64,000 bases of DNA from Hyphomicrobiales bacterium (GCA_003169835.1 PNAI01000044.1:20447-84446); one strand, 5' to 3'; positions 47,808-51,891 are shown, counted from the stretch's first letter. The notes: generated from the sequence alone by a model not told the origin. A program made the numbers and translations.

Positions 47808-47844
47808 TTGTACGCTCCGGAATCGCGTGCATATTGGCGGGATG
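47808..47844 (+). promoter_or_regulatory. Leaderless promoter module A
   Basis: TTGTAC-N16-CATATT-N6-ATG; shares GGAATCG.G.GCATATTGGCGGGATGG with copies B-D. Confidence 0.6.
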
Positions 47845-48015
47845 GTGGACCCTAACGAAACACCCGTAATGATGCCCTATAAGGATCAGGCTGGTTCCGG
47901 CTGGCACGTGATCATCAGGTATCACGCTGGCCACGAGCGGCGCATTGAGGGTTTTGCGACCGAAGATGAGGCTATGGCGTGGATCGTCGAAAACGCCACG
48001 GAAGTCGATAAGTAG
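47842..48015 (+). CDS. Cassette A small protein
   Basis: MVDPNETPVMMPYKDQAGSGWHVIIRYHAGHERRIEGFATEDEAMAWIVENATEVDK; downstream of promoter module A. Confidence 0.6.
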   Translation: MVDPNETPVMMPYKDQAGSGWHVIIRYHAGHERRIEGFATEDEAMAWIVENATEVDK

Positions 48016-48029
48016 CGACCCTTGCCCGA

Positions 48030-49045
48030 TCAGCACGTTATTTGCCGAGCGGCAAAATCTGACAATGCGGATGCACATGCGTCGCTTTTTGCGGTTGATT
48101 AATGCATTCCGCAGGAAAATTGAAAACCATACTGCCGCCGTCGCGCTGCATTCGATGTATTACAATTTCGTCCGCGTACATCAGACTTTGAAAGCCACCC
48201 CCGCAATGGCGGTCGGTGTGACAGACATCTACGCAAAACAGGAGCATCTTCGGAGAGCAAAATCTGCACCGCCAGAAGCGGGCGACGTTTGGACGTGGAC
48301 TGCGATTGATGCCGATACGAAACTCTTAGTCAGTTGGCTTGTTGGTAATCGCGACACGCAGTCTGCTCTCATTTTTATGAATGATCTAAAATCGCGCGTT
48401 GCAGGTCGAATGCAAATCACTTCAGACGGTCACCGGCCTTATTTGCAAGCTGTCGATACGATATTTGGGAACGACGTTGACTATGCAATGTTGCAAAAAG
48501 TTTACGGCGCTGATCCGATTGCAGAGAGACGCTATAGCCCGGCAATTTGTCTTGGCGCGTATAAAAGACCAGTGACAGGTAACCCCGATCTTAAACACGT
48601 CAGTACGTCATTCGCGGAGAGACAAAATCTTTCGATGCGAATGCATATGCGGAGGTTTACACGGCTGACAAACGGATTTAGTCGCCGCATTGAAAATCAC
48701 ACTGCGGCAGTCGCGCTATATTCGATGTATTACAATTTCGCCCGCGTGCATCAGACTTTGAAAGTTACCCCTGCGATGGCTGCTGGCGTGACAGACAAAC
48801 TCTGGGAGGTTAGCGACATCGTGCAGGTGCTTGAGGATTGGGAAGCAAAGACAAAAGCCGCACCGAAATTCGAGATTGAAGCGAACAAGATCGGGGAGGG
48901 GTATTTCGTGCGAGCAACTCTCCCGTCAGGCAAGTCGGAAACGATCTATGGCTTTGCATATAAAGCCTCTGCTGCAAAATGGATCAGGAACGAATCCGTT
49001 GTTTGGCTCCATGCCGTGCGGCAGACGATCAAGGTTCCGGCCTAA
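48030..49045 (+). pseudogene. Chimeric IS1-like transposase remnant (C-terminal block fused to middle+C-terminal blocks of a second copy)
   Basis: FAERQNLTMRMHMRRF...GVTD occurs twice in one frame (48030-48228 and 48610-48798); N-terminal HTH absent. Confidence 0.8.
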
Positions 49046-49079
49046 TTAAGTATTGCTCAGTCACGCTACGTGCCCCTTA

Positions 49080-49220
49080 GAGGCCGTTTCGAAACCCGGT
49101 GGGGTCGGCCCTCCTCGGTTCTTCGGAACACGAAAATAGCGATATGTGGCTGCCAGACACCGCAAAACGGTGGCAATAGTCACCCTTGAAGCCGTCGGCA
49201 GTGGGTTTCGAAACGGACTC
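49080..49220. mobile_element. 141-bp MITE with 18-bp TIRs and TTA target duplication
   Basis: GAGGCCGTTTCGAAACCC (49080-97) vs reverse complement of 49203-49220 GAGTCCGTTTCGAAACCC; flanking TTA at 49077-79 and 49221-23; no coding capacity. Confidence 0.8.
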
Positions 49221-49292
49221 TTACGGTACGAGTGTATCTCAACCATTTGTTTGCCATACTTTGGACCTCGATGCAGCCTTATTTGAAAACCA

Positions 49293-49325
49293 CCCACTAC
49301 CGCCTCTTGGGTAGTGTCAGTTTGA
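49293..49325. repeat. IS-end-like palindrome CCCACTACC-gcctctt-GGGTAGTGTCAGTTTGA
   Basis: Shares core with 51319-51367 and 54807-54832. Confidence 0.65.
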
Positions 49326-49360
49326 ATAAGGCACGCCCGTTTGTTGCTAGCAGCATTAGG

Positions 49361-49385
49361 GAATCAGGCGCATATTGGCGGGATG
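49361..49385 (+). promoter_or_regulatory. Leaderless promoter module B
   Basis: GAATCAGGCGCATATTGGCGGGATGG; CATATT 49371-76, 6 nt, ATG 49383. Confidence 0.5.
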
Positions 49386-49532
49386 GACGAGGATCAGGCC
49401 GCAAAGCAGCGTAGGTTGGCCGCAATCCTGGCCGGTTTGGCCGCGCGTGGCCTAATCATCCTCGGGACTAGCCCAGAAGAGATGGCAGAGAAGCTTTCCC
49501 CGGTTGTCGCCGAGATCGAGAAGCTTGTCTGA
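49383..49532 (+). CDS. Cassette B small protein (49 aa)
   Basis: MDEDQAAKQRRLAAILAGLAARGLIILGTSPEEMAEKLSPVVAEIEKLV. Confidence 0.55.
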   Translation: MDEDQAAKQRRLAAILAGLAARGLIILGTSPEEMAEKLSPVVAEIEKLV

Positions 49533-49957: not shown

Positions 49958-50189
49958 GTGCCCAAGCATCCCAAGCGCCCACGCGACTCGGCCCAACTGG
50001 CCAAGCTCGTGGTCGATATTGCCACCGGGCAGGTCGTGGACCGCGAGCCCACGCCAGAGGAGCAGGGCAAGGACCCTGCGGCAGTCTCCATGGGGCGCAA
50101 AGGTGGAGCCGCCCGCGCGGCGGCTCTGGGGAAGCCGCAGGCGGAAGGAAATAGCCCGCAATGCAGCCGCCAAACGGTGGCGCGGGTAG
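49958..50189 (+). pseudogene. Cassette C KRPRD/KGGAARA basic protein, frameshifted
   Basis: KHPKRPRDSAQLAKLVVDIATGQVVDREPTPEEQGKDPAAVSMGRKGGAARAAALG continues in another frame as RRRKEIARNAAAKRWRG*; G4 at 50128-31. Confidence 0.6.
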
Positions 50190-50192
50190 GGG

Positions 50193-50915
50193 GTGGTCTC
50201 TACGCTGGTTGGCGGTCGCAATACCGAATACGCGCTGCATTTTCTATCGGACCTCAAATCGCGTTTGAGCAATCGCGTGCAACTGACCAGCGATGGCCAT
50301 CGTCCGTATTTGCAGGCAGTCGATACCGTGTTCGGTGATGACGTTGATTACGCGATGCTGGTCAAGATTTATGGTTCGGACCCGGCAGGAGCGAAGCGAT
50401 ATAGCCCGGCCAAGTGTCTCGGTGCGCGCAAGTCGCCAGTGATCGGCGAGCCTGACAAGAAGCACATCAGCATGTCATTCGCCGAGAGACAAAATCTGAC
50501 AATGCGGATGCACATGCGCCGCTTTACCCGGCTCACCAATGCATTCTCAAAGAAGTTAGAGAACCACAGCTACAATGTTGCGCTTTACTCCATGTTTTAC
50601 AATTTTGTCCGCATCCATCAGACGCTGAAAGTCTCGCCTGCGATGGCCGCTGGCGTTACCGACAAGCTTTGGGAAATTGGCGACATCATTACGATGGTAG
50701 AAGCGTGGGAAGCCAAGTATGTGACCGCTGGAATTACATACCGCGTTGGCGAGAATGAAATCGGCGGCGGATATTTTGTCCGCGTGATCCCGCGCTACGA
50801 GCTTTTGCCCGATCCGGTCTATGGATTCAAGACTCGCGAGGAAGCAGAATTCTGGATCAAGCAGGATCGTACGTCACACAAGCCGGGCAGGCGACGGAAA
50901 TTAGCCGCCATCTGA
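50193..50915 (+). pseudogene. 5'-truncated IS1-like transposase
   Basis: Near-identical to the 53158..54201 transposase from STLVG(G/R)R onward; N-terminal HTH and first catalytic region missing. Confidence 0.85.
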
Positions 50916-50963
50916 GGAGGCGGCCTATTTACGCGCGTTGCGGTAATTATGGCGCAAAGAGCA

Positions 50964-51146
50964 CTAGCTTTTAAAGACGTTCAATAAAACGGACGTGGCT
51001 GAACCGTCAGCGCCAATATCGGAGTGCTTATTGAGCACTTTTTGTGCGTCTTCCTCATTTTCGGCCAATACAAAATCTGGCCGGTGCTTGAATGAAGGGT
51101 TGGAGTCTTCGTGATAAAATTTAAAGGCCGCCTGAAAGAAAGCCAT
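50964..51146 (-). CDS. Small hypothetical protein (60 aa)
   Basis: MAFFQAAFKFYHEDSNPSFKHRPDFVLAENEEDAQKVLNKHSDIGADGSATSVLLNVFKS; AGGAAAG upstream. Confidence 0.5.
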   Translation of the reverse strand: MAFFQAAFKFYHEDSNPSFKHRPDFVLAENEEDAQKVLNKHSDIGADGSATSVLLNVFKS

Positions 51147-51302
51147 TTCTTTCCTCACTCTTGGTCTTTAATTCCCGGTTGTACCTACATATTATTACGC
51201 CGAATCCTGGATTGTGGCAAGTTGCCTTAATCTCGAGCTAAGTCCTCACAAAATTGCCCCATTCTGACCAGAGGTTCTTCCCTCTCCAGTTCTTGGCATT
51301 TA

Positions 51303-51367
51303 TCAAGTTTTAAATAAATCAAACTGACCCACTACCGCCTCTTGGGTAGTGGGTCCGTTCATTAAAT
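51303..51367. repeat. IS-end-like repeat TCAAGTTTT...TCAAACTGACCCACTACCGCCTCTTGGGTAGTGGGTCCGTTCATTAAAT
   Basis: First 42 bp match 54791-54832; last 23 bp identical to 49764-49786. Confidence 0.7.
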
Positions 51368-51385
51368 CGCGGCCTTAATTGCCGC

Positions 51386-51422
51386 TTGCCCCGCCCGGAA
51401 TCGGGGGCATATTGACTGGATG
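51386..51422 (+). promoter_or_regulatory. Leaderless promoter module D
   Basis: TTGCCC-N16-CATATT-N6-ATG; upstream ATTGCCGCTTG shared with module A. Confidence 0.6.
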
Positions 51423-51668
51423 GCAAAGCTTCGGCCTGACGGAACAGCCACAATCGGATGGTTGGTCAGTGTTACTCCAACACTGAGCGATAAATCGTAT
51501 TCTGTGAGGCTTTTGGCCGCCGCGTTCGATAGTGGAGCCGCCGCCGAGTCAGCGGTCATGGCGAGCCGGGAGGGCAGCGGGTGCCACGTCACCGCGCTAC
51601 AGCGGTTTACAGCGGGGGAGATGAGCCTTCTCAGAATGAGGCCAGGGGACATCAAACCGTATGCCTAA
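51420..51668 (+). CDS. Cassette D small protein (82 aa)
   Basis: MAKLRPDGTATIGWLVSVTPTLSDKSYSVRLLAAAFDSGAAAESAVMASREGSG...; downstream of module D. Confidence 0.6.
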   Translation: MAKLRPDGTATIGWLVSVTPTLSDKSYSVRLLAAAFDSGAAAESAVMASREGSGCHVTALQRFTAGEMSLLRMRPGDIKPYA

Positions 51669-51891
51669 GCACCCCAAGCGCCCGCGCGACCCTGCCCAAC
51701 TGGCCAAGCTGATAGTCGGCATTGCCACCGGGGAGGTCGAGGATCGGGAGCCTACGCCAGAGGAGCAGGGGAAAGATCCGGCAGCGGTCGCGATGGGCAA
51801 AAAGGGCGGGGCGGCGCGGGCCAGTAAGCTTAGTTCTGCTCGCAGAACGGCTATCGCTAGGAACGCCGCAAAAAGCAGATGGAAGCCCTAA
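51661..51891 (+). CDS. KRPRD/KGGAARA basic protein (histone H1-like, intact copy)
   Basis: MPKHPKRPRDPAQLAKLIVGIATGEVEDREPTPEEQGKDPAAVAMGKKGGAARASKLSSARRTAIARNAAKSRWKP; overlaps cassette D ORF. Confidence 0.75.
   Translation: MPKHPKRPRDPAQLAKLIVGIATGEVEDREPTPEEQGKDPAAVAMGKKGGAARASKLSSARRTAIARNAAKSRWKP

Follow-up and report, generated by a model that had tools for sequence, protein, structure and literature searches.

Insertion sequences (IS) with passenger genes are known as transporter IS and have short inverted repeats, a single transposase and passengers that do not serve transposition. Members of the IS1 family encode a DDE transposase with an IS1 signature around the last acidic residue; their ends start with GGT and the target duplication is short. 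Tn7 and Tn7-like transposons, including Tn6022 (PMC10293859), home in one orientation to a conserved chromosomal site and carry diverse cargo. Here we describe an array of elements that resembles the three groups in these respects. It is located in a 64,000-nucleotide stretch of DNA from a Hyphomicrobiales bacterium (GCA_003169835.1 PNAI01000044.1:20447-84446; hereafter the window) between lolD, which ends at 47512, and dnaE, which starts at 55469. We regard it as very probable that the array consists of related IS1-type transposons which entered a single site one by one, all in the same orientation, directly upstream of the -35 box in a LexA-controlled promoter.

The elements also depart from each of the described groups. 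They differ from IS1 in their single-frame transposase, which has an extra C-terminal domain in the group found at the SOS site, in their size of 2.2-4.4 kb with passengers, in a nearly constant gene for a small basic protein (KGG) and in their strong site preference. The TnsA/TnsB/TnsC core and a TniQ/TnsD selector were not found between the ends, which enclose a single DDE transposase, small genes and cargo; in contrast to Tn7-like elements there is one transposase, the target is a promoter operator and not a coding sequence, and the duplication is 8 bp long. What sets them apart from transporter IS is the constant accessory gene together with a left-end promoter that stays fixed while the first gene varies. 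The open-access literature, of which our coverage was incomplete, contained no description of IS1 passengers of this kind, of LexA-box targeting or of SOS-operator homing by IS1-type elements.

Elements of the array and their boundaries

An earlier reading made from the sequence alone (the sequence-only reading) had described the small genes of this region as four cassettes of a modular locus. Three transposase genes or remnants lie among these small genes. The 8-bp repeat GCCTCTTG, the target duplication, is present at 49302, 51337 and 54825 and splits the stretch into the elements A, B, C and D, the inverted ends being GGTAGTGGGTC... on the left and ...GACCCACTACC on the right. The array is a stack of IS1-related transposons, and the four cassettes are their left ends. 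The general plan of an element is a left end, a promoter approximately 73 nt inside it, a variable small gene, the KGG gene, cargo, the DDE transposase and the inverted right end.

All four elements lie on the plus strand. Element D (51345..54824) is a complete transposon of 3480 bp with inverted ends and a perfect GCCTCTTG duplication (51337-51344 / 54825-54832), delimited also by comparison with the family. Element C (49764..51336, 1573 bp) has kept both ends, its transposase lacks the N-terminal part and its KGG gene is frameshifted. No duplication separates the left end of C from the adjoining truncated basic gene of B, which is what an adjacent deletion would leave. Element B is a remnant (49310..49763), in which the left end GGTAGTGTCAGTTTG, preceded by GCCTCTTG at 49302-49309, is followed by the promoter, the open reading frame (ORF) B, a zinc-ribbon gene and the truncated KGG gene. 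Element A (47796..49301) is the most decayed; it has lost its left end and consists of the promoter, ORF A, a scrambled transposase and the right end CCACCCACTACC, followed by GCCTCTTG. Within A, an inverted repeat of 36 bp (CCGTTTCGAAACC core) forms a unit of approximately 150 bp (49074-49226), possibly a miniature inverted-repeat transposable element. Upstream of A, a zinc-ribbon gene (47606-47791) of the same family as the first genes of L209 and L217 (L-numbers denote individual loci fetched in the comparison) is probably the remnant of a still older element.

The landing site at an SOS promoter

The right flank of D reads GCCTCTTG|AC, followed by GAACAAACGATGAAC and GTTCTTTGTTTGTTC. This landing site (54829..54871, plus strand) comprises a CTTGAC -35 box and two LexA boxes, GAACAAACGATGAAC (54839-54853) and GTTCTTTGTTTGTTC (54857-54871), both of which match the alphaproteobacterial LexA box GTTC-N7-GTTC / GAAC-N7-GAAC exactly; the consensus reported for Caulobacter is (T/A)TGTTC(N6)TGTTC (PMC13384398). 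Behind the promoter lies a gene for a membrane protein of 32 aa (MFRAVVEEAAALTSIALFLGMIAIWAKVIAVM; 54885..54983, plus strand), which is conserved in relatives. The same gene is present behind a double-LexA-box promoter in L140-L169; it is apparently a small SOS gene, for which the Caulobacter division inhibitor SidA is a possible comparison.

The two-LexA-box site pattern is present in 161 of 382 genomes of the bacterial family. All 30 site loci fetched from the pattern search were empty and had the small gene. A transposon right end is found at the exact site position in 22 of the 161 genomes, some of these ends being remnants, and the site is empty in most relatives. The 22 occupied genomes were identified by manual comparison of site positions with right-end matches allowing up to two mismatches; since this right-end pattern is noisy on its own, only matches adjoining the SOS site were counted. 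The site has been used repeatedly across genera: elements were found there in L084, L085, L086, L094 and L134, and the complete copies in L202, L204, L209, L212, L215 and L217 are flanked by perfect NNNNCTTG duplications and oriented like D. Short copies of 370-550 bp are present at the SOS site as well. Tandem arrays were detected in L202, L209, L215, L218 and L219, and in these, as in the window, the promoter-proximal copy is the most complete.

The elements at this site might all go back to a single ancient insertion, present in the common ancestor of the bacterial family and lost in most lineages, and the occurrence of related transposases (60-73% identity) at the same site in several genera would agree with that. 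However, the duplications are perfect in nearly all complete copies while the flanks differ between hosts, the short and tandem copies indicate repeated arrival, and recA promoters are targeted too, which leaves a single old insertion very unlikely.

Spacing between insertion point and LexA box

Two elements that had been found through KGG or the transposase, L104 and L124, are inserted in front of recA. A gene-blind search for a right end followed by 13-16 nt and an exact LexA box yielded 15 matches, about 12 of them genuine and four of them recA promoters, compared to 7 matches summed over genomes for the reversed pattern used as control. Insertions at recA promoters were found in L104, L124, L220, L221 and L231. 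Among 30 insertions defined by their duplications, 8 had an exact LexA box within 88 bp to the right, compared to 4 of 2362 background windows. At the two types of promoter, which are unrelated, all 25 junctions that were aligned have the LexA box starting 14-15 nt away from the point of insertion; since many of these junctions were chosen by site, the evidence is the spacing and not the frequency.

A simpler view would be that only a short host sequence is recognised, either CTTGAC or the -35/-10 promoter occupied by RNA polymerase, and that the LexA boxes are bystanders, an SOS promoter being by chance the site used most. The duplications of the small-gene class indeed always end in CTTG, and the distance to the box varies between 14 and 15 nt. 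The recA-site insertions, however, have no CTTG at that position and yet keep the 14-15 nt to the LexA box, and the gene-blind search exceeded its reversed control. We therefore think it unlikely, though worth keeping in mind, that the boxes play no part.

The choice of site is associated with the C-terminal extension of the transposase. Elements found independently of their site were located at LexA boxes in 7 of 8 cases with the extension and in 2 of 22 without it (Fisher p 1.3e-4, from a table made by hand). The extension is not the sole determinant of targeting, since recA-site elements mostly lack it.

Several observations weigh against insertion at LexA operators as a complete account. 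In the wider family with GGTAGTGTC ends, the majority of elements lie elsewhere and have no LexA box within 88 bp, so that SOS targeting is a property of subgroups. The array itself has been rearranged, since A lacks its left end and C its left duplication. Some of the 22 occupied sites hold only short or degenerate ends, and the conserved small-gene sites could partly reflect inheritance, although the perfect duplications speak against insertions of great age.

Other elements of the family lie just upstream of a glmU-like gene or next to DnaA-box-like repeats (L113 and L098). Judging from these two loci, other subgroups may have preferred sites of their own.

A model for insertion and array growth

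In the mechanism that we propose, the transposase, or LexA bound to its operator, would recognise the LexA box and direct insertion to a point that precedes the box by 14-15 nt and lies beyond the -35 box. Each insertion would copy 8 bp (GCCTCTTG in the window) and keep the SOS promoter whole. Since the promoter is left intact, the site could be hit again, and later elements would land between the promoter and the earlier ones. D, next to the promoter, would accordingly be the newest copy, and the older B and C, followed by A, would have been pushed away while decaying. In its broader form, the model holds that an IS1-related clade uses LexA operators, or LexA itself, as insertion address, inserting just upstream of SOS promoters (those of the 32-aa gene and of recA) in one orientation and building up age-ordered tandem arrays, with KGG and the small beta-beta-beta-alpha domain of the transposase, which also occurs as a free passenger, acting as accessories that bind target or ends. 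We favour this broader form with some reserve.

The transposase and its relation to IS1

The intact DDE transposase of D has 347 aa (53158..54201, plus strand; an alternative start at 53116 would give 361 aa). It matches Pfam PF03400 (DDE_Tnp_IS1) with 26.9 bits at a gathering score of 24.1, and stays below the cut-off of 100 of the strict NCBIfam IS1 equivalog NF033558 with 65.5 bits, which places it as IS1-related and outside the core IS1 group. Relatives are annotated as 'IS1 family transposase'. The catalytic triad D69/D141/E205 is invariant in 25 transposases, and the modelled structure matches the RNase-H-like integrase/transposase fold with weak global template-modelling similarity. Inverted ends and 8-bp duplications were found in 24 elements, within the 8-9 bp expected for IS1. 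Overlapping insA and insB' frames joined by a frameshift are not present in the transposase of D, which is a single open frame. Single-frame members are known in the IS1 family, and the single frame separates the elements from classical IS1 only.

In the structure model of the D transposase (pLDDT 83.6), the C-terminal extension folds into three strands and a helix, reminiscent of the arm-type DNA-binding domains of integrases; a Pfam match to the arm domain was far below the cut-off. The 57-aa ORF A (47842..48015, plus strand) is a stand-alone relative of this extension (profile E 6e-7, blastp). The transposases of the older elements are damaged: that of C (50193..50915, plus strand) lacks the first ~107 residues, and that of A (47981..49045, plus strand) is scrambled.

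KGG as a standing component of the clade

KGG homologues were found in 26 of 149 genomes of the bacterial family and in other orders; a tblastn search of plasmids and phages gave no match at the limits used. At most KGG loci with enough flank, an IS1-type transposase lies downstream on the same strand. The search for inverted ends and direct repeats delimited 24 elements with KGG and transposase, with KGG near the left end. The 8-bp duplications were perfect in 23 of the 24 and matched at 7 of 8 positions in L114. When the sample was picked by the transposase alone, nearly all close relatives (>=50% identity) with readable context had KGG inside the same ends, while distant transposases (about 40% identity) lacked it. 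Pairwise divergences of KGG and transposase are correlated (Mantel r 0.49; 0 of 2000 permutations as high). The presence in nearly all close relatives and the correlated divergence show KGG to be a standing component of this clade.

The KGG protein is small, basic and mostly helical, and its structure model is of low confidence (pTM 0.35). It had no match in Pfam, NCBIfam and PDB, and weak C-terminal matches only in PHROGs. One relative, a plasmid gene upstream of such a transposase, is annotated as 'histone H1'. Because it is nearly constant in the clade, KGG probably serves the element as a DNA-binding protein with an accessory or regulatory role. The C-terminal KGG motif is also found as an N-terminal tag on P63C-type proteins in L096 and L121, the P63C assignment by Pfam applying to L096.

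Left-end promoter, first genes and cargo

The motif GGAATNNNGNGCATATTGNNNGGATG is present exactly at 47819, 49360, 49817 and 51397, where chance would give 0.01 copies by shuffling, even with 3 mismatches allowed. The four copies span 3.6 kb, and the gap between CATATT and ATG is 6 nt in all of them: copy A (47819..47844; CATATT 47830-47835, ATG 47842), copy B (49360..49385; ATG 49383), copy C (49817..49842; ATG 49840) and copy D (51397..51422; ATG 51420), all on the plus strand. No further site with fewer than two mismatches was found in the 3.3-Mb host genome, the exact motif was absent from 390 sampled genomes of the bacterial family, and a scan of the set genome_contigs for it gave no match. 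The exact motif is thus local to the array and not a general promoter. In other genera, sister transposons have a relaxed form (CATATT, 6-7 nt and an ATG ~73 nt inside the left end). A genome-wide promoter family was ruled out by the restriction to four copies, and a sigma-54 (-24/-12) promoter by the GG-GC spacing of 8 instead of 10.

Across the element family, the first gene often begins about 60-80 nt inside the left end; in most SOS-site elements, CATATT lies at about +60, with the start codon near +73. Of 19 elements, for some of which the start was picked by eye, 18 have a -10-like hexamer that terminates 6-7 nt ahead of the first codon, compared to 7% of background ORFs. In L053, L093, L097, L111 and L112 the start is fixed independently, since KGG itself is the first gene. 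A subgroup with the box further upstream and a ribosome-binding site lies outside the 19 elements counted. The geometry of box and start suggests that transcription of the first gene is likely leaderless. The left-end promoter would then drive an operon with the variable small gene first, its start codon being the predicted transcription start, and KGG second.

The first genes of the window differ from each other. Apart from ORF A, they are ORF B (49 aa; 49383..49532), a passenger without assigned family, ORF C (37 aa; 49840..49953), which from its sequence appears to be a signal/lipobox-like passenger, and ORF D (82 aa; 51420..51668), a passenger with weak similarity to the first gene of L084, all on the plus strand. 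ORF B is followed by the zinc-ribbon passenger gene (49532..49768, plus strand), the 3' end of which reads into the truncated KGG gene. KGG is frameshifted in C (49958..50189, plus strand) and intact in D (76 aa; 51661..51891, plus strand). Across elements, first genes encode zinc ribbons (Zn1 and Zn2 in the window; L086, L209 and L217), proteins without assigned family and free copies of the transposase extension (ORF A; L215).

The sequence-only reading had correctly described the four shared sites, the lengths of the four ORFs that follow them and the basic gene in its three states (truncated, which we place after 49763, frameshifted and intact). Its modular layout, with constant promoter and basic partner and a variable first gene, also holds across genera. 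It had assigned a basic gene to B, C and D and none to A, as we find, and had overlooked the zinc-ribbon gene of B and the scrambled transposase behind ORF A. The transposase genes, the terminal inverted repeats, the GCCTCTTG duplications and the SOS promoter at the right edge had likewise escaped it. Its interpretation is supported in part: the layout is right, and the exchange locus and the toxin/immunity pairing are wrong or lack support.

In cassette exchange, a fixed promoter and partner would gain new first genes by recombination, as the constant promoter and partner, the varying first gene and the swapping of first genes between sister transposons might indicate. The unit, however, is the whole transposon: each is bounded by transposon ends and target duplications, and passengers are swapped between transposons and not at one locus. 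The inverted repeats, the duplications and the empty sites largely refute exchange in a fixed locus, which we consider extremely improbable; no integrase gene was recognised among the window ORFs, and no attC-like site was seen.

The first gene and KGG are small and adjacent, one of them is basic, and many elements carry toxin-antitoxin-like cargo, so that a toxin-antitoxin or defence pair could be considered. KGG, however, accompanies first genes of unrelated kinds or takes the first position itself. Among the first genes are zinc ribbons and a copied transposase domain, and they belong to no single toxin family. A constant type II toxin-antitoxin pair was not found, as the first gene varies. 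We regard such a pair as very improbable; nothing points to the toxin/immunity pairing that had been suggested, and toxin-antitoxin-like genes are ordinary cargo only.

Such cargo lies between KGG and the transposase or behind the transposase and includes HicB with a weak HicA, XRE/IrrE-type regulators, PemK, NYN and ParA-like proteins. In D, the cargo region (52162..53047, minus strand) contains a HicB-family gene identified by Pfam (52162-52737) and a HicA-like gene with a match below the Pfam cut-off (52694-53047). An XRE/IrrE-like protein with a partner of 160-180 aa recurs between KGG and transposase in L092, L114, L209, L212 and L217. A tRNA-Ser(ACT)-like gene is the apparent cargo of a KGG transposon of the host's own genome (C8 element, L045:2992-3065).

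Implications

Site-specific homing is well described for Tn7-like elements; in the literature searched it is not described for simple IS1-type transposases or for a stress-response operator as address. The elements found here suggest that a single small transposase can gain a precise safe harbour, and they would tie insertion to the SOS system. Their tandem arrays would be a natural ordered record of insertion, and the elements account for a class of very small genes of this bacterial family that have leaderless-type starts and no annotation. If true, homing to SOS promoters would be a seldom described means by which a mobile element finds a safe place to insert.

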